This document shows, one piece after another, positions 23,549 through 31,666 of a stretch of DNA of 64,000 nt. Every line of letters starts with the position of its first letter. The first letter of the stretch is position 1. The stretch lies in NCBI GenBank assembly GCA_944320725.1, contig CALUIM010000002.1, forward strand, positions 124,001-188,000. Direction: 5' to 3'. This DNA is from an uncultured Coriobacteriaceae bacterium (GTDB lineage Bacteria > Actinomycetota > Coriobacteriia > Coriobacteriales > Coriobacteriaceae). A program made the position numbers and the translations under genes. The notes below the pieces were generated by a model. It saw nothing but the letters and a program-made list of their open reading frames with translations, did no database searches and was not told the DNA's origin.

Positions 23549-25556
23549 TTTGTTTATCGAGGACGGCGCGTACACCACAGTGGCGTCCGCCGTGTCGATC
23601 CTCGTGGTGCTCACATTGCTCTTCTCGACGGTGACGGCGGTATGGAGCCTGTCGCGTGCCGGTGATGTGCAGGTGGCTGCCGATGCCACGGCACTTGCCG
23701 GATCGAATGTTGTGGGGTCGTATTACACCGCTGCCACGGTGGTCGATGCTGCGGTGCTGAGCATGGGGCTCGCGGGCTTTTGCGTTACCGGCACGGGGCT
23801 GGTGGGGCTGCTTATTCCCGGGGCCAATGCCATAGCCGTCGAGACCATCAAGACGGGCGTCAAGCTGCTTGAGACCCGCAACAAGTTCGCCACGTCCGCT
23901 TCGAAGGGGCTCTCCAAGCTGGAGAAGGCGTTGCCGTATCTCGCTGCTGCCAATGCGACGCGCACGTGTTCGGCACAGGGCTCAGAGCGAATCGCCTATA
24001 CCGGGACCGCGCTTGTGGTGCCTACGACTTCGGCATCGAAGTTTCCAGCGCTTGAGGGAGAGGGCGTGCAAACCGAGGCACTCGAGACCTCGGCAGAGGC
24101 GCTTGATGGCGCGGCAGACGAGCTCGAGGCGGCTTCTCAAAAGACTGAGGCGGAGAAGCGCCGGGCCTGGATTGCCGATTGCGGGCGCGATGGCTTCAAC
24201 ATGCAAGAGCGCGCCGGCAAGCTTTCGAGTATCTCGGCTGCAGAGAATCCCGATTACGCCTCGAGTGTGACCTGGGATCCTCAGGTTGGCATCGACCGTA
24301 CCCGCGCCTACTATCGCAGCAGGCTTGCCAGCGAGGCACCGCAGGGTTCGAGCGCCGAGGCGCAGGCAGACTCTGCAGCGCGTCGGGTCTTCTATGCATA
24401 TGCGCTCGAACAATTCGAGGGTGCGTACGTGGTTGAGCAGGATGGGCGCGTGAGTATGTCGGTGCCGCTGCTGCCGCGCAATACTAGCGAAGTTCGCGGC
24501 ACCACGCTCTACACCGATGCCGTGTGGCCAACAACCTACGAGGAAAACGGCCTGACCATGCACTATGGCCTGTCGTGCCCGGGGGCAACGGGCGGCGCGG
24601 GACCCTCCATTTCGCTTGCTGCGCAGGAGGGTGGCCGGGCGCGCGAGTGCGAGGCCTGCCGGTTTGGTGTGGGTGACGTGGGCAAGACGCCCGCTGCCTC
24701 AACGTCGATCGACAACGGATACGAGTACCATCTGCGCGAATATACGTTAGCCCTGCAGGACTATGTCGCCGCTCGCAACCACGAGCTCGAGCTGGAGCGG
24801 CGTGCCAAGGAACAAGCGGGTATTGCGCGCGAATCGTTCGAGGATGCGCTGGCCACGCTCGCCAACAAGCGACCCAGCATCGCGCCGCCTGGGCGCTACG
24901 GCTGTTTGGCGTTCACGGTTACCGGAGAGCTTGCGGCGTCGGACGAGCTACACAACCCGTTTACGGCAACCGGTGCGGTGGGTGCGCGCGGGGCGCTTTC
25001 GGCCTCGGTGTTGGCGCCGGATGGCGGGACGGAAGACAACAACGTGCTTTCTGAGTTCTTCAGCTCGGTGGAGGCGCATTCGGGCGGGCAGGGTGCCGTT
25101 GGCCTCATTGGCGACGTCATGGACGTGTGGGGCAAGCTGCTCGTGGCGTACGACGATATAGGCGATGGACTCGCCAAGCTCTTCGAAGATCTGACGGATG
25201 GGCTGTCCGCGTTCGGCTTCACTCCGCTGGCAACATGGCTCTCGGATACCCTCAGCACTACCGTAAGCACCCTCGGTCTTGAGCCTGCGGACCTACGGCT
25301 CAAAAAGCCGGTCCTCACCGATAGTGCTAACGTGCTCGCGAAAGCGAATCTAGGAAGTGCGGCAGATGCGCAGGAGCTGCTGCGATCGCTGCCGCTCGGC
25401 TCGAGCGATCCGGTTGCAGTACTCCAGGCGCTGGGTTACGAGGTGCAAGAGCGCATCAGCGAGACCACGTTCACCCTCGCCGAGATACCCCTGCCCGGCG
25501 GCGGATCTATTCCCATAACCATCCGCGTTAAAGACCTCATGAAGGGGGTGACATAA
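23520..25556 (+). CDS. Large TadG-like pilus-associated protein
   Basis: 678 aa. N-terminal segment FIEDGAYTTVASAVSILVVLT has the charged-then-hydrophobic layout of TadG/TadE stems, followed by AADATALAGSNVVGSY, the conserved start of Flp pilus-assembly TadG domains. The rest is a large Ala/Glu-rich extracellular region with a likely coiled coil (about residues 170-230 and 410-440). ATG 23520 has GAGGGGAGTT. Overlaps the tadE-like gene by 29 nt. Length is far beyond usual TadG, so it may form a tip or anchoring component; this is inferred. Confidence 0.75.
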   Translation: MRRGFRHGVDLFIEDGAYTTVASAVSILVVLTLLFSTVTAVWSLSRAGDVQVAADATALAGSNVVGSYYTAATVVDAAVLSMGLAGFCVTGTGLVGLLIPGANAIAVETIKTGVKLLETRNKFATSASKGLSKLEKALPYLAAANATRTCSAQGSERIAYTGTALVVPTTSASKFPALEGEGVQTEALETSAEALDGAADELEAASQKTEAEKRRAWIADCGRDGFNMQERAGKLSSISAAENPDYASSVTWDPQVGIDRTRAYYRSRLASEAPQGSSAEAQADSAARRVFYAYALEQFEGAYVVEQDGRVSMSVPLLPRNTSEVRGTTLYTDAVWPTTYEENGLTMHYGLSCPGATGGAGPSISLAAQEGGRARECEACRFGVGDVGKTPAASTSIDNGYEYHLREYTLALQDYVAARNHELELERRAKEQAGIARESFEDALATLANKRPSIAPPGRYGCLAFTVTGELAASDELHNPFTATGAVGARGALSASVLAPDGGTEDNNVLSEFFSSVEAHSGGQGAVGLIGDVMDVWGKLLVAYDDIGDGLAKLFEDLTDGLSAFGFTPLATWLSDTLSTTVSTLGLEPADLRLKKPVLTDSANVLAKANLGSAADAQELLRSLPLGSSDPVAVLQALGYEVQERISETTFTLAEIPLPGGGSIPITIRVKDLMKGVT

Positions 25557-26032
25557 TGTATGCACGTGGCGTGGCCCGCGAGTGCCGTGCGCAGGCGGTG
25601 GTTGAGATGGCAATCGTCACGCCGGTGCTCATCGTGTTGGCGCTCATCTCCTGCAACCTCATGATCTTCGCGGCAGCGGTTGCGCGGTTCGATCGCGTGG
25701 TGCCCGATATCGTGCTGGCGCATGCGGTGTCGCCCGCCGGTATGACGGGAGCCGATGGCGGTGAGGATGCTACCGCGACGGTTGCCGCTCAGATCGAGCA
25801 GGCCATGACGGGCTACGACGTTGAGATCACGGTCGAGCGAAGTGTGGGATCAGACGAGGACGGCGGCATGCTTGCCTTGGTGGGGGCGTTGCATACCTAT
25901 CGGTGCACGATGTCGTATACGCCCTGGCCCGGTGCGCTGTCCATTGCGGGCGTGAACATTGGCTCGCCGCTCGCGCTCAAGCACGTGCGCGAGACGGTGC
26001 TCGACCCCTGGCGTCCAGGCGTGGTGATGTGA
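25556..26032 (+). CDS. TadE-like pseudopilin (second)
   Basis: 158 aa. CRAQAVVEMAIVTPVLIVLA is a clear TadE-type motif and stem, followed by a periplasm-facing domain. TAATG overlap with the preceding gene. Shares the R-A-Q-[GA]-x-x-E signature with the other pilin-like proteins of the operon. Confidence 0.8.
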   Translation: MYARGVARECRAQAVVEMAIVTPVLIVLALISCNLMIFAAAVARFDRVVPDIVLAHAVSPAGMTGADGGEDATATVAAQIEQAMTGYDVEITVERSVGSDEDGGMLALVGALHTYRCTMSYTPWPGALSIAGVNIGSPLALKHVRETVLDPWRPGVVM

Positions 26033-26374
26033 TTGCGTGCGGTAGAGATTGCATCAATTGCGCGGGGTCTTGATGAGCTGGGGTGGCAGGCTGGCCGCGT
26101 CGTGGTTGCCACCGGGTTTTGGCAGCGCGCTTTTGGCCTCATTGGGGCCTCATGGCGCATGCGGCATCTGCGCAGGGCGGGCGGCGGTACGCAGCAAGCG
26201 AATATCGTCATGGTCTTCCCGCGCTGCGCCTCGGTGCATACCTTCTTCATGGGATGCTCGATCGACGTCGCGTTCATTGGCAGAGATGGGACCGTGCTGC
26301 AGATATATGGCGATGTGGGACCGGGGCGGGTGCTCAGGGTACCGGACGCTTTAGCCGTGATCGAATACTTGTAG
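26033..26374 (+). CDS. DUF192-family protein at the end of the tad operon
   Basis: 113 aa with the DUF192 core: MVFPRCASVHTFFMGCSIDVAFI, then G-x-V-L-Q-I and a closing P-D-A-x-A-V-I-E. The family is a small beta-barrel of unknown function, often exported or membrane-linked. Here there is no signal peptide. Start TTG directly follows the TGA of the pseudopilin gene, so it is likely the last gene of the tad operon. Confidence 0.75.
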   Translation: MRAVEIASIARGLDELGWQAGRVVVATGFWQRAFGLIGASWRMRHLRRAGGGTQQANIVMVFPRCASVHTFFMGCSIDVAFIGRDGTVLQIYGDVGPGRVLRVPDALAVIEYL

Positions 26375-26830
26375 GATGCACGCCCCTGTTTGGCCGACAT
26401 CGAAACGTACGGCACGGGGCTACGCCGTATTAGATGCGTTTGTGATGAACAGGGCGTACCCGTCGAGGTCTTCCAGCGCGGCGATGGCGTGCACGTGCGT
26501 TTCGCCCGTGCGGAGGCAGTTGCCGCCGATAACCCGCCGACAAACTAGCGAATCCGCCGATAACCCGCCGATAACCCGCCGATAACAAGCAAAGGACCCG
26601 CCGATAAACAGTTTTTAAGGACTTTAGAGGCAGCAAAGGGAACATCCTCGAAGAGCGAACATGCTGTTTGCGTGTACCTGTCCGAGAGTGGGCCTTCAAC
26701 CGTTTCAGATATGTCGAACGCTTTAGGAATCCCGACGAGAACGCTGCGCGATGTCATGCGTCGCCGTGTGGAGAGAGGTATCGTGGTGACGATGGGCGCT
26801 AGCAAGAATAGGCGGTACAGCTTAAGGTAA
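26375..26830 (+). pseudogene. Remnant of an AlbA_2/Schlafen-type ATP-binding regulator
   Basis: In one frame the region reads a family C-terminal piece (IETYGTGLRRIRCVCDEQG with VEVFQRGDGVHVRFARAE), then a repeat stretch with two in-frame stops (TAG and TAA within 26545-26565), then a winged-helix tail (VYLSESGPSTVSDMSNALGI to SKNRRYSLR) ending at 26830. The first two thirds of the parent gene are missing and there is no start. The interrupted part consists of CCGCCGATAAC repeats. This is a decayed accessory gene abutting the tad operon. Confidence 0.65.
26524..26607 (+). repeat. Short tandem repeat CCGCCGATAAC
   Basis: Five to six near-copies of CCGCCGATAAC(C), some adjacent, others separated by a few bases. 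They lie between the two conserved parts of the decayed regulator gene and include its in-frame stops. Too short and too irregular for a CRISPR array. Confidence 0.7.
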
Positions 26831-26905
26831 GTAGGGTTCCCGTTCGTAGCCGGTCCATTTTACTGCAAGCCAATATGCGTCATTGGGCGTTTGCGAGAGA
26901 GGAAA

Positions 26906-26932
26906 AACAAAAAACCCAGGCAGGAGCCTGGG
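26906..26932 (-). terminator. Terminator of tRNA-Phe
   Basis: Leftward hairpin CCCAGG-CTCCTG-CCTGGG followed by TTTTTTGTTTTT, 17 bases after the tRNA 3' end. Confidence 0.9.
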
Positions 26933-26948
26933 TATGGGGAACAAAGGG

Positions 26949-27021
<73 letters not shown>

Positions 27022-27046
27022 ACGTGTCGTCAAGCGACGGGTATCT

Positions 27047-27074
27047 ACTATATCAAATCAGATGATTCGGTCAA
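27047..27074 (-). promoter_or_regulatory. Promoter of tRNA-Phe
   Basis: Minus strand TTGACC (27069-27074), 16-base spacer, TATAGT (27047-27052), 26 bases before the mature tRNA. Good sigma-70-type match. Confidence 0.75.
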
Positions 27075-27167
27075 GCATCCAAATGCTTCTTTTCAAAAAA
27101 GCTTGGCTGCAGCGAGTTCGGCCTCGAGTTCGATGGTTGCTAGAAGCGGTGGAGTGCCCAAAGAAGC

Positions 27168-27247
27168 GGGCAGTCGCCTCTGCAAAAACGGCTGCCCACA
27201 TACAGTCTATGAGCAGGAGGGCTTATCCTCTGCTTGCTACGAGTATA
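27168..27247. repeat. Left copy of a structured direct repeat
   Basis: Hairpin GGGCAGTCGCC...CGGCTGCCC (27168-27197), then GCAGGAGGGCTTA (27213-27225) and TGCTTGCTACGAGTATA (27231-27247). The same parts recur in the same order at 27490-27587, on the other side of the small peptide gene. Read leftward, TGCTATACT could act as an extended -10. Confidence 0.65.
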
Positions 27248-27376
27248 GCAAAAGATACCGGAGGGGTACATAAAAAGCACGAACAATTGTTCCTATATCC
27301 AGGTAGAAATAGTAAAATGGAGACATGCAAGCGGGCGGTGCCCTCCGAGTCCAACGGGGTAGATAGGAGGGATCCC

Positions 27377-27460
27377 GTGCTAAAGCTATCCCAGCTGCTG
27401 CTTGCAGCGGCTATCTTGATCGCGCTGGTTTTACTAGCTTTCGAGATGATGCTTAGTTAA
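27377..27460 (+). CDS. 27-aa hydrophobic peptide, type I toxin-like
   Basis: Short gene from GTG 27377 with an excellent site AGGAGG at 27365-27370. The peptide is one membrane helix: L-K-L-S-Q then LLLAAAILIALVLLAFEMML, ending in Ser. An in-frame ATG at 27317 would give 47 aa, but its surroundings (TAAAATGG) look more like a -10 box. Followed after 30 bases by a hairpin (27490-27520) and flanked by direct repeats, as in Fst/Ldr-type toxin loci with an antisense antitoxin RNA. No sequence-level identity with a known toxin is claimed; it could also be a regulatory or transporter-associated micropeptide. Confidence 0.5.
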   Translation: MLKLSQLLLAAAILIALVLLAFEMMLS

Positions 27461-27489
27461 TCTGAGCGTGGGATGATGTCTAAGCAAGG

Positions 27490-27587
27490 GAACAGCCGCC
27501 TTTAGCGGAGACGGCTGTTCATGCGGGCATCGCCCACAAAGCCCAATTCGCAGGAGGGCTTAAAACCTTCTGCTTGCTACGAGTATA
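27490..27587. repeat. Right copy of the structured direct repeat, with hairpin
   Basis: Hairpin GAACAGCCG...CGGCTGTTC (27490-27520), then GCAGGAGGGCTTA (27550-27562) and TGCTTGCTACGAGTATA (27571-27587). Read leftward, GTATACT near 27582 is a possible -10 for an RNA of about 85 nt running back to the hairpin, that is, antisense to the 3' end of the peptide mRNA. No strong T-run is seen beside the hairpin. Confidence 0.55.
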
Positions 27588-27943
27588 CCCCATCGCGGCG
27601 TCCCCGTTCGCTGCGGGGTGTACTCGGCCCTATGTAAATTGCGGCAATCTTAAGAACGTTATTGGTGTGATTACGCCTGTTCCCCAAGCTTGCAAACAAT
27701 GTTGCTCCTAGTCAGATATTGCCAGCCGCAGGAGCAGGTGCTCTTGGCATGATCGCCGTGATGACGGAGTGCATGTTGAAGTAGGTGAGAGACATCCTTT
27801 AGCGGCTGTTGCCGACGATAAACGTGGTTGCGGGATATTCTGTGCGCTTGAGAGATGCGGGGAAAGAACAACCCGCTTTGATGGAAGCGATTCTTTGCTA
27901 TGGGTAAAGCGCTGCTTTGCCGGGGTTATCTTTTTCGCAATAT
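27588..27943. other. Non-coding stretch between the toxin-like module and the GH5 gene
   Basis: No convincing gene on either strand. An imperfect stem-loop (AGGAGCA-GG-TGCTC) is near 27738. The GH5 promoter follows. Codon use in the open frames present does not resemble the neighbours. Confidence 0.5.
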
Positions 27944-27973
27944 TTGGACCGCTCTTGGCGGCTTGGGTATACT
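27944..27973 (+). promoter_or_regulatory. Promoter of the GH5 gene
   Basis: TTGGAC (27944-27949), 18-base spacer, TATACT (27968-27973), 34 bases before the start codon. Confidence 0.6.
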
Positions 27974-28006
27974 CAATGCACAGCAATTCGAGTATGGGGA
28001 GGCGAT

Positions 28007-29071
28007 ATGGCGGAGCGGATTCGCGGGGTCAACCTGTCTGGTTGGTTTATTCCCGAGCCCTGGGTAACGCCATCGCTCTTTGCCGCTACGGGCGCGTCGA
28101 ACGAGGCCGAGCTTCAGGAGGCGTTGGGCGCAGCCGAGTATAACGAGCGCATCAGGCATCATTACGAGACGTTCATCACCGAAGACGATTTTAGGCGCAT
28201 GGCAGCCATCGGGCTCAATGCCGTGCGGCTGCCCGTGCCGTGGTACGCCTTTGGCTCGCAGAGCGAGTCTGAGGTGTATATCCCGGTGGTCGACTATATC
28301 GACCGCGCGTTTGAGTGGGGCGAGAAGTACGGGGTTCGCGTACTGCTGGATCTGGCAACGGTGCCGGGCGGCCAGGGCGACTCCAATGCAACCTCGACCA
28401 CGCCGGAGAGCACGGCCGCGTGGCATTCGTCTACCAACGGGCGCCACATTGCGCTCAACGTGCTGGAGCGTCTGGCGGCGCGCTACGGGGCGCGGCCCAA
28501 CCTGCTGGGCATCGAGCTGCTCGATTCGCCGGTCATGAGCACGCGCAAGGGGCTCTTCGCCACCACGGAAGGCATCCCGCGGCACTACCTGCGCAACTTC
28601 TACCGCGATGCCTACGAGCTCGTACGCATGCATATGGCAAACGATAAGCTCGTGGTGTTCTCGGCATCGGGCAATCCGTCGGCGTGGAAGCATTTCATGA
28701 GCAGCTCCAAGTACACCAACGTGTGCATGGACATCCACCTCTACCACCACCGCGGTGAGCACGCGCAGGAGATCACGAGCCCGCACGGGCTCTCGGCGGC
28801 GCTCGCGCGCAACCGTCAGCTCATTCGCGAGGCGCGCCTGGCAGGTTTCCCCGCCATCGTGGGCGAGTGGTCGGGTGCGGCGGTGTTTTCCAACGCCTCT
28901 ATCACGCCCGAGGGCCGCACAGCCTATGAGCGCGTGTTTATCTCCAACCAGCTGGCCTCGTTTGCCGAGGCTCGCGGCTGGTTCTTCCAAACGTGGAAAA
29001 CCGAGAAGCGCATTCCGGCATGGGACGCACGCGCTGCGCTGGGCACGCTCGAGCGCGCAATGATTGACTAG
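28007..29071 (+). CDS. Glycoside hydrolase family 5-like protein lacking the usual acid/base residue
   Basis: 354-aa TIM-barrel protein of the GH5 (exo-1,3-beta-glucanase-like) group: IRGVNLSGWFIPEPW, LNAVRLPVPWYAF, MDIHLYHH and IVGEWSGA, with the nucleophile at E287. In active relatives the strand-4 motif is L-N-E-P, whose Glu is the acid/base; here it reads GIELLDSP, so that position is Ser174. No signal peptide, so it is cytoplasmic. ATG 28007 has GGGGAGGCGAT. The protein may be an inactive binder, use another proton donor, or act on a substrate that needs no acid (for example, glycosides with good leaving groups). It sits 11 bases before rsmI. Confidence 0.8.
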   Translation: MAERIRGVNLSGWFIPEPWVTPSLFAATGASNEAELQEALGAAEYNERIRHHYETFITEDDFRRMAAIGLNAVRLPVPWYAFGSQSESEVYIPVVDYIDRAFEWGEKYGVRVLLDLATVPGGQGDSNATSTTPESTAAWHSSTNGRHIALNVLERLAARYGARPNLLGIELLDSPVMSTRKGLFATTEGIPRHYLRNFYRDAYELVRMHMANDKLVVFSASGNPSAWKHFMSSSKYTNVCMDIHLYHHRGEHAQEITSPHGLSAALARNRQLIREARLAGFPAIVGEWSGAAVFSNASITPEGRTAYERVFISNQLASFAEARGWFFQTWKTEKRIPAWDARAALGTLERAMID

Positions 29072-29082
29072 GCGGCCTGGGC

Positions 29083-29973
29083 GTGGGTGCGGGCAAGCTG
29101 TTGGTGGTGGGTACGCCCATCGGTAATTTGGGCGACCTCTCGCCGCGCGCCATCGAGGCGTTCCGCGCGGCCGATGCCATCTGCTGCGAGGACACGCGCG
29201 TTACATCCAAGCTGCTGGCGCACGCCGGCATCTCCAAGCCGCTCGTGCGCTGCGACGAGAACGTGATCGCAGCGCGTGCAGCGGGCCTGGTAGCACGCAT
29301 GGAGGCGGGCGAGGTGCTTGCCTTTGCCTCCGATGCCGGCATGCCGGGTGTCTCGGACCCCGGACAGGTGCTTGTGGATGCCGCCCGTGCGGCGGTCGTA
29401 CCGGTCGAGGTGATACCGGGACCAGTTGCCTGCATTACCGCACTCGTTGCCTCGGGGATTTCCTGCGACCACTTTTTCTTCGAGGGCTTTTTGCCGCGCA
29501 AGGCAGGCGAGCGCGCACGCCGCTTGGCCCGGCTCGTCACGGTGCCGGGGGCGCTGCTCTTCTACGAGTCGCCGCACCGCGCCGCCGCTACACTTGCCTC
29601 CATCGCCGAGGTATTTCCTGCACGCGAGGTAGCGCTTTGCCGTGAGCTCACCAAGCTGCACGAGGAGGTGTTGCGCGCGAGCGCACCCGAGCTTGCGGCG
29701 CAGGTGGACGCGCGCGGCGAGCTTAAAGGCGAGATCGTGATTGTGGTGGCCCCGCCTGTCGCCGAGGATGAGTTTGCCGAGGTGCCCGCAACGCCCGGAG
29801 CGCGTGCTCCCGAAGACCGCGATGTCGCGTTAGCGCGCGACATCGAGGAGGCGCTTGCGCAGGGCAAGAGCGCATCAGCCACCGCCAAGGAGCTCTCGCA
29901 GCGCTATTCGCGCCGTCGCCGCGAGGTGTATGAACTTGTGCTCGCCGCACAAGCGCGCGCAGACGGGCGCTAG
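29083..29973 (+). CDS. rsmI: 16S rRNA (cytidine-1402 2'-O) methyltransferase
   Basis: 296-aa SAM-dependent methyltransferase of the tetrapyrrole-methylase fold acting on the 30S decoding site. Hallmarks: KLLVVGTPIGNLGDLSPRA, CEDTRVTSKLLAH, ASDAGMPGVSDPG and VIPGPVACITAL, and FFEGFLPRK. GTG start at 29083. Close to metG, rsmA and tatD, a common translation/RNA cluster. Confidence 0.95.
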   Translation: MGAGKLLVVGTPIGNLGDLSPRAIEAFRAADAICCEDTRVTSKLLAHAGISKPLVRCDENVIAARAAGLVARMEAGEVLAFASDAGMPGVSDPGQVLVDAARAAVVPVEVIPGPVACITALVASGISCDHFFFEGFLPRKAGERARRLARLVTVPGALLFYESPHRAAATLASIAEVFPAREVALCRELTKLHEEVLRASAPELAAQVDARGELKGEIVIVVAPPVAEDEFAEVPATPGARAPEDRDVALARDIEEALAQGKSASATAKELSQRYSRRRREVYELVLAAQARADGR

Positions 29974-30040
29974 GCCGCCCTATGCGGTAGAATCAACAAT
30001 TGTCTGTATGCATTCGAATCGGTGGAAGGATCGCACCGCC

Positions 30041-31666
30041 ATGGACCACGCTCAGCCGTCGTACTACATCACCACGCCCATCTACTACGTGAACGCCCAG
30101 CCCCACTTGGGGACGGCCTACTGCACGGTGCTGGCCGACGTCCAGGCGCGGTTCCGCCGCTCGTGCGGGTACGACGTCAAGTTCCTCACCGGCATGGACG
30201 AGCACGGTGAGAAGGTGGCCGAGGCTGCCGGGAAGAACGGCTTCGATACGCCGCAGGCCTGGTGCGACCACATGGAACCCGCGTTCCGCGATTTGTGGGG
30301 CGAGCTCGAGATCTCGAATGACGATTTCATCCGCACCACTCAGCCGCGACACATCGCCGGTGTGCAGCAGTTTTTGAAGGCGCTGCTCGACCGCGGCTAC
30401 ATCTACAAAGATGCCTACGATGGCTGGTACTGCCGCCCCGACGAGACCTACTTCACCGAGACGCAGGTGCGCCATCACGAGGAGGAGCGCGTTGTCTCCG
30501 GCGAGGCTCCTGCCGACCCCGAGCATCCGCTCTGCCCGGATTGCGACCGCCCGCTCGAGCGCATCAAGGAGGAGAGCTGGTTCTTCAAGCTTTCCGAGTT
30601 CCAGCAGCCCCTGCTCGATTTCTACGAGGCGCATCCCGATTTCATCCAGCCCGAGACGCGCCGCAACGAGGTGCTCTCGTTTGTGAAGGGCGGCCTCAAA
30701 GACCTCTCCATCAGCCGCTCGACGTTTGACTGGGGCGTGCCGTTCCCCTTCGACGAGAAGCACGTAGCCTACGTGTGGGTGGACGCGCTCATCAACTACC
30801 TCTCGGCCGTGGGCTACGGTGCCGAGGGTGAGGACGCTGCCAACACGCTCGCGTTCCGCTGGCCCGCGCAGGTGCACGTGGTGGGCAAGGACATCATTCG
30901 CTTCCACTGCGTAATCTGGCCGGCGCTGCTCATGGCCGCGGGCCTGCCGCTGCCCGAGAAGGTCTTTGTGCACGGCTTCCTTACCGTGCGCAACGAGGAG
31001 ACCGGCAAGGTCGAAAAGATGAGCAAGAGCCGCGGCAACGTGATTGCACCGCAGGAGGTTGTAGAGCTGCTGGGGGTCGACGCGTACCGCTACTACTTCA
31101 TGACCGACGTGACACATGGCGCCGATTCGCCTATCAGCTGGGGCCGTATGCGCCAGGTGTATAACGCCGACCTTGCCAACAGCTGGGGTAACCTTGTGTC
31201 GCGTACGCTCAACATGAGTGCCAAGTACTTCGACGGCTGCGCGCCCCAGCGCCCGGCAACGTTCGACGAGCCCTCGCCCTTGCACGATGCGTGCGCAGGC
31301 ATCTTCGAGCGCTACGCCGCGCGCATGGAGGTCATGGATTATGGCGGGGCGGCAGCCGAGGTGCTGGGGATTGTCTCGGCGGCCAACCACTATATCGAGG
31401 ACATGGCGCCGTGGGCACTCGCGAAGGACCCCGCGAAGGCCGATGAGCTGGCGCAGGTGATCTGGAATCTGCTCGAGGTTATTCGCATCGCTGCCGAGCT
31501 CTACGAGCCCTTTATGCCGAGCATCTCGGCCGAGGTGCGTCGCCGCCTGTCGCTCGACGCGGCGCCCACGGCCGACCTTGCCGCGGCGTGCACGTGGGGC
31601 GGTCTTGCCGGTGGCGAGCCGGTGGAGAAGGGCGCGCCGCTCTTCCCGCGTCTTACCGACGAGTAA
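30041..31666 (+). CDS. metG: Methionine-tRNA ligase
   Basis: 541-aa class I synthetase of the short bacterial type, without the C-terminal dimerisation domain. HIGH-equivalent QPHLGTAY, zinc-knuckle region with WYC near residue 130 and CPDC near 160, KMSKSRGN, and the helical anticodon domain after residue 390. ATG 30041 was chosen because MDHAQPSYYITTPIYYVNAQ begins at the family start and GGAAGGA lies ahead; ATG 30008 is also possible. Confidence 0.97.
   Translation: MDHAQPSYYITTPIYYVNAQPHLGTAYCTVLADVQARFRRSCGYDVKFLTGMDEHGEKVAEAAGKNGFDTPQAWCDHMEPAFRDLWGELEISNDDFIRTTQPRHIAGVQQFLKALLDRGYIYKDAYDGWYCRPDETYFTETQVRHHEEERVVSGEAPADPEHPLCPDCDRPLERIKEESWFFKLSEFQQPLLDFYEAHPDFIQPETRRNEVLSFVKGGLKDLSISRSTFDWGVPFPFDEKHVAYVWVDALINYLSAVGYGAEGEDAANTLAFRWPAQVHVVGKDIIRFHCVIWPALLMAAGLPLPEKVFVHGFLTVRNEETGKVEKMSKSRGNVIAPQEVVELLGVDAYRYYFMTDVTHGADSPISWGRMRQVYNADLANSWGNLVSRTLNMSAKYFDGCAPQRPATFDEPSPLHDACAGIFERYAARMEVMDYGGAAAEVLGIVSAANHYIEDMAPWALAKDPAKADELAQVIWNLLEVIRIAAELYEPFMPSISAEVRRRLSLDAAPTADLAAACTWGGLAGGEPVEKGAPLFPRLTDE

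Follow-up and report, generated by a model that had tools for sequence, protein, structure and literature searches.

The 64,000-nucleotide stretch of DNA analysed here (the window), from an uncultured Coriobacteriaceae bacterium (contig CALUIM010000002.1, positions 124,001 to 188,000), holds a short reading frame for a hydrophobic peptide with a ribosome site before it, a hairpin after it and repeats on either side, and raises the question of whether so small a frame is a gene at all and, if it is, whether it is one half of a type I toxin-antitoxin pair, as a first-pass annotation of the sequence had proposed. All of these elements are present (Table 1), with homologues and conservation placing them beyond chance. 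The comparisons presented here make it probable that the locus is an SOS (LexA)-controlled type I toxin-antitoxin module; the sequences of its relatives support calling it a module, and from them we infer that the peptide is a toxin and that the mechanism is the one proposed below. Neither the LexA box at 27281-27292 nor the complementarity of the mRNA leader to both the Shine-Dalgarno (SD) sequence and the 3' repeat had appeared in the first-pass annotation.

Table 1. Features of the unit and of its surroundings, in window positions.
Feature	Position	Strand	Remarks
Segment missing from closest relative	27112-27920		34 bp there instead of 809
Left repeat: second unit without toxin, reduced to an orphan antisense module	27160-27248	-	nhmmer 35.9 bits; TATACT kept at 27242-27247
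LexA (SOS) operator GAACAATTGTTC over putative toxin promoter	27281-27292	+	Same box as before lexA, recA and (presumed) ruvC
Predicted toxin mRNA -10 box TAAAAT	27313-27318	+	Aligns with TATAMT-type boxes of other units
mRNA leader GCAAGC..GCCCTCC	27327-27346	+	CCCTCC pairs with the SD, or together with GCAAGC with the 3' repeat
Shine-Dalgarno GGAGGG	27366-27371	+	Conserved (alignments A2, A3)
27-aa one-helix hydrophobic peptide (putative toxin)	27377-27460	+	GTG start, 27 codons
Nested hairpin in 3' UTR	27468-27537		Inner hairpin 27490-27520 is the likely antisense terminator
Predicted antisense RNA (antitoxin), ~95 nt, leftward	27480-27575, ends approximate	-	Inferred from -10 box and hairpin 27490-27520
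Right repeat	27550-27577		Predicted antisense RNA 5' end (minus), leader pairing partner (plus)
Right-end hairpin, possible toxin mRNA end	27581-27625	+	Arms partly conserved
Predicted antisense promoter -10 box TATACT	27582-27587	-	At least 5/6 matches to TATAAT in 42/44 units

A family of small hydrophobic peptides

Other copies of the unit, for which the first-pass annotation suggested a search, do exist, with a nucleotide search against 98 relatives giving many strong matches within the same family, down to an E-value of 3e-89. For the comparison of the peptides, 39 stretches of relatives were fetched, with the members of the family found to be of 25-32 residues, to form one helix and to share the consensus MAKLTxLLLAAAxLLAxxxILxL in a 28-member alignment. 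The SD and the start codon are aligned and conserved across 31 units; the ORF scan for the peptides of relatives demanded an SD-like site, and the conservation of the SD is therefore a result of the alignments alone. Pooled over pairs of at least 60% identity, which are not independent of one another, a pN/pS of 0.39 indicates purifying selection on the peptide. A protein-profile search of 64 genomes of the family gave 36 matches at E ≤0.1 in 22 of these genomes, 31 of them with E ≤1.2e-4 and the other five weak, one of the weak matches being the known unit in L034. On the evidence of these sequences, the peptide is a member of a family under selection.

A covariance model of the leader, spanning only ~54 positions that end at the start codon, detects the unit in 23 of the 65 genomes searched from the window's Coriobacterial family, in 33 of 395 from its order and in 12 of 396 from a phylum-wide sample; all the units lie in just two families, f1 and f5. 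The distribution is patchy, with up to four or five units per genome and tandem units present. Carriers with names, among the listed loci of a pattern scan that were then searched with the module HMMs, are Enorma massiliensis phI, Collinsella intestinalis DSM 13280, Collinsella sp. An2, Collinsella stercoris and Olsenella sp. SW781. This pattern scan, of genome contigs, was too loose, returning at least 119 stretches that are mostly chance matches in GC-rich genomes, and the same kind of scan over viral contigs picked out 15 loci, in which neither the 5' nor the 3' module is present. Among the 134 listed loci of the genome and viral scans, the 3'-module HMM matches six and the 5'-module HMM seven, and the pattern-scan loci were used for naming hosts, not for counts.

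A known toxin family was ruled out, with the Pfam, NCBIfam and PADLOC toxin models giving no match beyond noise against the 28 members. A known RNA family was likewise ruled out, with Rfam over 24000-31000 giving tRNA only, as was a phage or plasmid gene, no match being found in phage or plasmid records.

A LexA operator over the peptide promoter

The palindrome GAACNNNNGTTC stands, in relaxed form, upstream of the -10 box in 27 of 28 units. The window's own genome holds 23 exact GAACNNNNGTTC sites, compared with 82 for a reversed control pattern; two of the 23 lie before lexA, one before recA, one before the gene that we take to be ruvC (it and ruvA were named from their translations) and one in the unit itself. 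In all three other genomes examined, recA is preceded by the same box. Over 44 non-redundant units, a relaxed LexA-type box occurs in 42 and a strict box in 24, compared with 0.26 and 0.055 respectively expected from dinucleotide shuffles; the two units without a LexA-type box are L036_11078, whose upstream region has been replaced, and L265.

The leader model yielded 14 further loci, with L260 and L271 being the same as L114 and L118, both already in the model, and omitted from the 12 held-out loci and from the 44 units. The 12 loci outside the model, several of which are close relatives of already known units, have a LexA-type box in 11 cases, the peptide in 11 and the 3' repeat in 10. At L261 (genome G210), a single deletion took the middle of the ORF together with the 3' antisense module, with the LexA-type box, leader and SD kept. 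At L269, the peptide frame is kept and the antisense repeat is missing, which counts against the module, though the SD and -10 box there are degenerate. Judged by its sequence and by the genes that share it, the box over the peptide promoter is a LexA operator, placing the peptide gene in the predicted SOS regulon.

A separate LexA-type box, GAACAAGTGTTC, was observed at G000:C1:78860-78871 (L067:1501-1512), ~140 bp before an ORF that, judged from its translation, is presumably a bile-salt (choloylglycine) hydrolase; this arrangement possibly reflects an SOS link, or chance.

A predicted antisense RNA over the 3' end

The leftward -10-like box seen in the right repeat by the first-pass annotation is kept in 42 of 44 units, mostly as TATACT, with the variants TATATT, TACAAT, TATTAT and TATAAT all still -10 boxes; the units without it are L261 and L269. 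The right-end hairpin has 60.3% (helix 6) and 74.7% of cells paired in its arms, the opposite arm being much less conserved, and its T-run is missing in the window and present in some relatives. Because the plus-strand hairpin that contains the -10 box is only 60.3% paired, a minus-strand promoter better explains the conservation of the box.

The hairpin of the 3' UTR has an MFE of -39.7 kcal/mol when 27455-27538 is folded, and its inner hairpin, 27490-27520, covaries; helix 2 has 7 of 10 pairs changed on both sides and 91.5% of cells paired. In the nine nucleotides that follow the inner hairpin, the T fraction is 0.38 on the antisense side, compared with a background of 0.22, and 0.23 on the sense side, compared with a background of 0.20, as scored in 28 of 32 units with four skipped. 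The T-richer antisense side is modest evidence for an antisense terminator, the T-run of which would be weak. A scan for the sigma-70 consensus gave no promoter for either transcript, both having a -10 box without a clear -35, and no strong intrinsic terminators were found for the module. The prediction of an antisense RNA from the minus strand is well supported by the comparison of units.

All 31 confident peptides (E ≤1.2e-4) carry the 3' antisense module, with the loci of 26 examined directly and the other five, in L034, L036, L050, L051 and L053, matched via the module HMMs; the 5' module, too, is present in every one of these loci. In the opposite direction, 17 of 51 antisense 3' modules, the left repeat of the window among them, have no 5' (toxin) module, with some of these keeping the end of the ORF and many keeping TATACT. 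Loss of the toxin with retention of the antitoxin is the outcome predicted by a toxin-antitoxin pair, though simple one-sided decay could also have left such orphans. Within the confident profile matches, the putative toxin never occurs without the 3' module, the one exception, the degenerate L269, having come by another route. The selected peptide, the surviving -10 box, the 31 of 31 co-occurrence and the decayed units together lend support to the type I module suggested by the first-pass annotation.

Orphan hairpins that resemble the 3' module, similarly placed and lacking the antisense -10 box, were also seen at L063, L065 and L066 in three genomes of the window's genus; these may be a different terminator family.

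The 3' region is where the module can be set against an SOS-induced small membrane peptide that has a useful job and no antitoxin RNA, the 3' region then being only a terminator or RNA-stability structure. Such a job might be, for example, to brake cell division or respiration, as with SidA of Caulobacter. The LexA box and the conservation of the peptide would, by themselves, fit such a peptide, as would a 3' UTR hairpin conserved as structure on whichever strand; however, the minus-strand box remains a -10 box despite its sequence changes, the inner hairpin is followed by a T-richer antisense side, a third of the 3' modules (17/51) survive with no 5' module beside them, and the units are patchily distributed and occur in tandem. 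We consider a useful peptide without an antitoxin unlikely.

Predicted pairing of the leader with the SD and the 3' repeat

The leader and the 3' repeat can pair in 87.0% of cells, compared with 44.0-55.2% when the two are slid out of register, with 14 cells changed on both sides compared with a shuffle mean of 6.0, and with none of 500 shuffles as high. Pairs in which both sides have changed are no more numerous than in the shuffles (256/500). Taken together, covariation gives partial support to a predicted pairing of leader and 3' repeat. The pairing of the leader with the SD through CCCTCC is possible in 98.4% of cells and is invariant, with zero compensatory change, and because it is invariant, covariation cannot confirm it.

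Duplex energies in the window are -33.2 kcal/mol for leader and 3' repeat, -24.2 kcal/mol for leader and SD, and -66.6 kcal/mol for antisense RNA and 3' repeat. Because the minus strand of the 3' repeat is predicted to form the start of the antisense RNA, both RNAs would begin with similar sequences. A clean on/off switch of the SD, with the leader exchanging the SD for the 3' repeat, is not general by ensemble folding, which over 31 units that differ widely from one another gives the SD a mean unpaired probability of 0.16 in the full mRNA and of 0.10 when the 3' repeat is blocked. With the SD mostly paired either way, an opening step, such as processing as in tisB, would probably be needed.

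The left repeat and the history of the site

The direct repeats at 27213-27247 and 27550-27587 share 19 identical nucleotides plus a 13-nt block. The first-pass annotation took the left repeat for half of a decayed second unit, and this is borne out by 27212-27247, where 36 of 36 positions agree with the right repeat in L039; that unit, also from the window's genus, carries a different, 32-aa peptide. From this match, at least two units reached the site, one of which is now toxin-less. The unit is adjoined by a tRNA-Phe gene (26946-27022, minus strand), and in all eight congeners this tRNA and the next gene are present with the module absent at the site. The segment missing from the closest relative was either inserted in this lineage or lost from that relative.

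The tail of the segment, 27631-27920, has no match among the other loci compared and no clear gene. Elsewhere near the site, a short tandem repeat (ccgccgataa-type) at 26525-26600 stands just before a 52-aa ORF at 26672-26830.

The state of the site also bears on whether the same toxin-antisense pair is a selfish addiction element, maintained through the death of cells that lose it, with an SOS link that would work for the spread of the element and not for a host stress response. A site that is without the unit in eight of eight congeners, the closest having 34 bp in place of 809, would suit such an element, as would its occurrence in 33 of the order's 395 genomes, with as many as four or five units in one genome, and orphan antitoxins. 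In contrast, no integrase or transposase was recognised by eye among the ORFs of the inserted segment, no match was found in phage or plasmid records, and LexA control is a host-like signal, and we regard an addiction element as quite improbable. That there is no gene at all, and only a chance ORF between repetitive structured sequences, can be dismissed: short ORFs are common and the first-pass annotation rested on one sequence, but the pN/pS of 0.39, the profile matches at E ≤0.1 (a few of them weak) in 22 of 64 genomes and the conserved SD and start codon rule it out.

Comparison with known type I systems

For the SOS-controlled type I module favoured here, control by LexA makes TisB and DinQ closer functional parallels than Ldr and Fst. 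According to excerpts of the papers cited, tisB/istR-1 of E. coli likewise consists of a LexA-controlled, 29 aa hydrophobic membrane peptide and an antisense antitoxin, and has an inactive mRNA with a structured 5' UTR (PMC4147584, PMC8309996). The IstR-1 gene is divergent and its RNA binds the 5' UTR at a site far upstream, whereas the antisense RNA predicted in the window would converge on the mRNA and cover its 3' end; none of the 28 members matches the TisB family in Pfam or NCBIfam, and the host phylum differs from that of E. coli. The dinQ/agrB pair of E. coli is described, again in excerpts, as a LexA-regulon toxin of 27 aa, with a single helix, that is countered by an antisense RNA (PMC8309996, PMC3567139); the agrB antitoxin has a divergent gene and complementarity to the long 5' UTR (PMC4147584); the window unit has no sequence match to it.

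Fst/RNAII (par of pAD1) and Ldr are alike in their convergent RNAs that overlap at the 3' ends, with repeats allowing the antisense RNA to reach the ribosome-binding region, as the excerpts of PMC4147584 describe for Fst. The unit has a similar layout in its sequence, with both of its RNAs predicted. In contrast to Fst and Ldr, the predicted antisense 5' end in the window copies the whole mRNA leader, the unit is under predicted LexA control and there is no family match. The likeness to Ldr and Fst drawn by the first-pass annotation thus holds for the convergent layout and fails for family membership, no model matching the 28 members.

The bsrG/SR4 and txpA/RatA pairs of B. subtilis also have an antisense RNA overlapping the 3' end, and 3'-end pairing in BsrG lengthens the stem that hides the ribosome-binding site (excerpts of PMC4147584), an effect that we propose for the window unit. 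TxpA is longer (59 aa), both pairs lie in prophage-type elements, and the excerpts describe no LexA control for them. The zor/orz system of E. coli is alike in its tandem units and antitoxin-only loci, which recall the left repeat (PMC11264685, in excerpt), and differs in its divergent, 5' UTR antisense RNA and unrelated peptide. By analogy with these systems, we read the unit as a putative SOS toxin of the TisB/DinQ type with a 3'-overlapping antisense RNA of the Fst/BsrG type that copies the mRNA leader.

Proposed mechanism and significance

In healthy cells, LexA would block the toxin promoter and the leader CCCUCC would keep the SD closed. A leftward antisense RNA of ~95 nt, presumably constitutive, would cover the 3' UTR of the mRNA, with its 5' end, as a copy of the leader (GCRAGC..GCCCUCC), occupying the 3' repeat, leaving the leader on the SD and touching the SD, and RNase III would cut the double strands. 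Upon DNA damage, LexA would be lost, the mRNA would outrun the antisense RNA and the peptide would be made, with the putative toxin then inserting in the membrane and slowing growth. As a more tentative proposal, which we hold to be possible though doubtful, the units may form an SOS-controlled type I family of Actinomycetota in which the antitoxin copies the toxin leader. A shared anti-Shine-Dalgarno sequence at the start of the two RNAs would then set them in competition for the SD and the 3' repeat, and copies that lack the toxin, the left repeat among them, would confer immunity in trans to related units.

Type I systems were known only from Proteobacteria, Firmicutes and Tenericutes until a 2025 paper added Cyanobacteria, according to the excerpts of PMC12390103, and the SOS-inducible type I systems named in excerpts of PMC5848175 and PMC6563280 are tisB, dinQ and symE, all of E. 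coli. Our literature search found neither a type I toxin in Coriobacteriia nor a description of such a unit, which does not prove their absence from print. The unit is a strong candidate for a toxin-antitoxin pair of a kind unreported from Actinomycetota in the literature searched. If this is true, the family would add Actinomycetota to the phyla with type I systems, and the coupling of DNA damage to a membrane peptide and an antisense RNA would have evolved a further time, in another layout. The unit can be tested directly in named carriers, among them Collinsella intestinalis and Enorma massiliensis.
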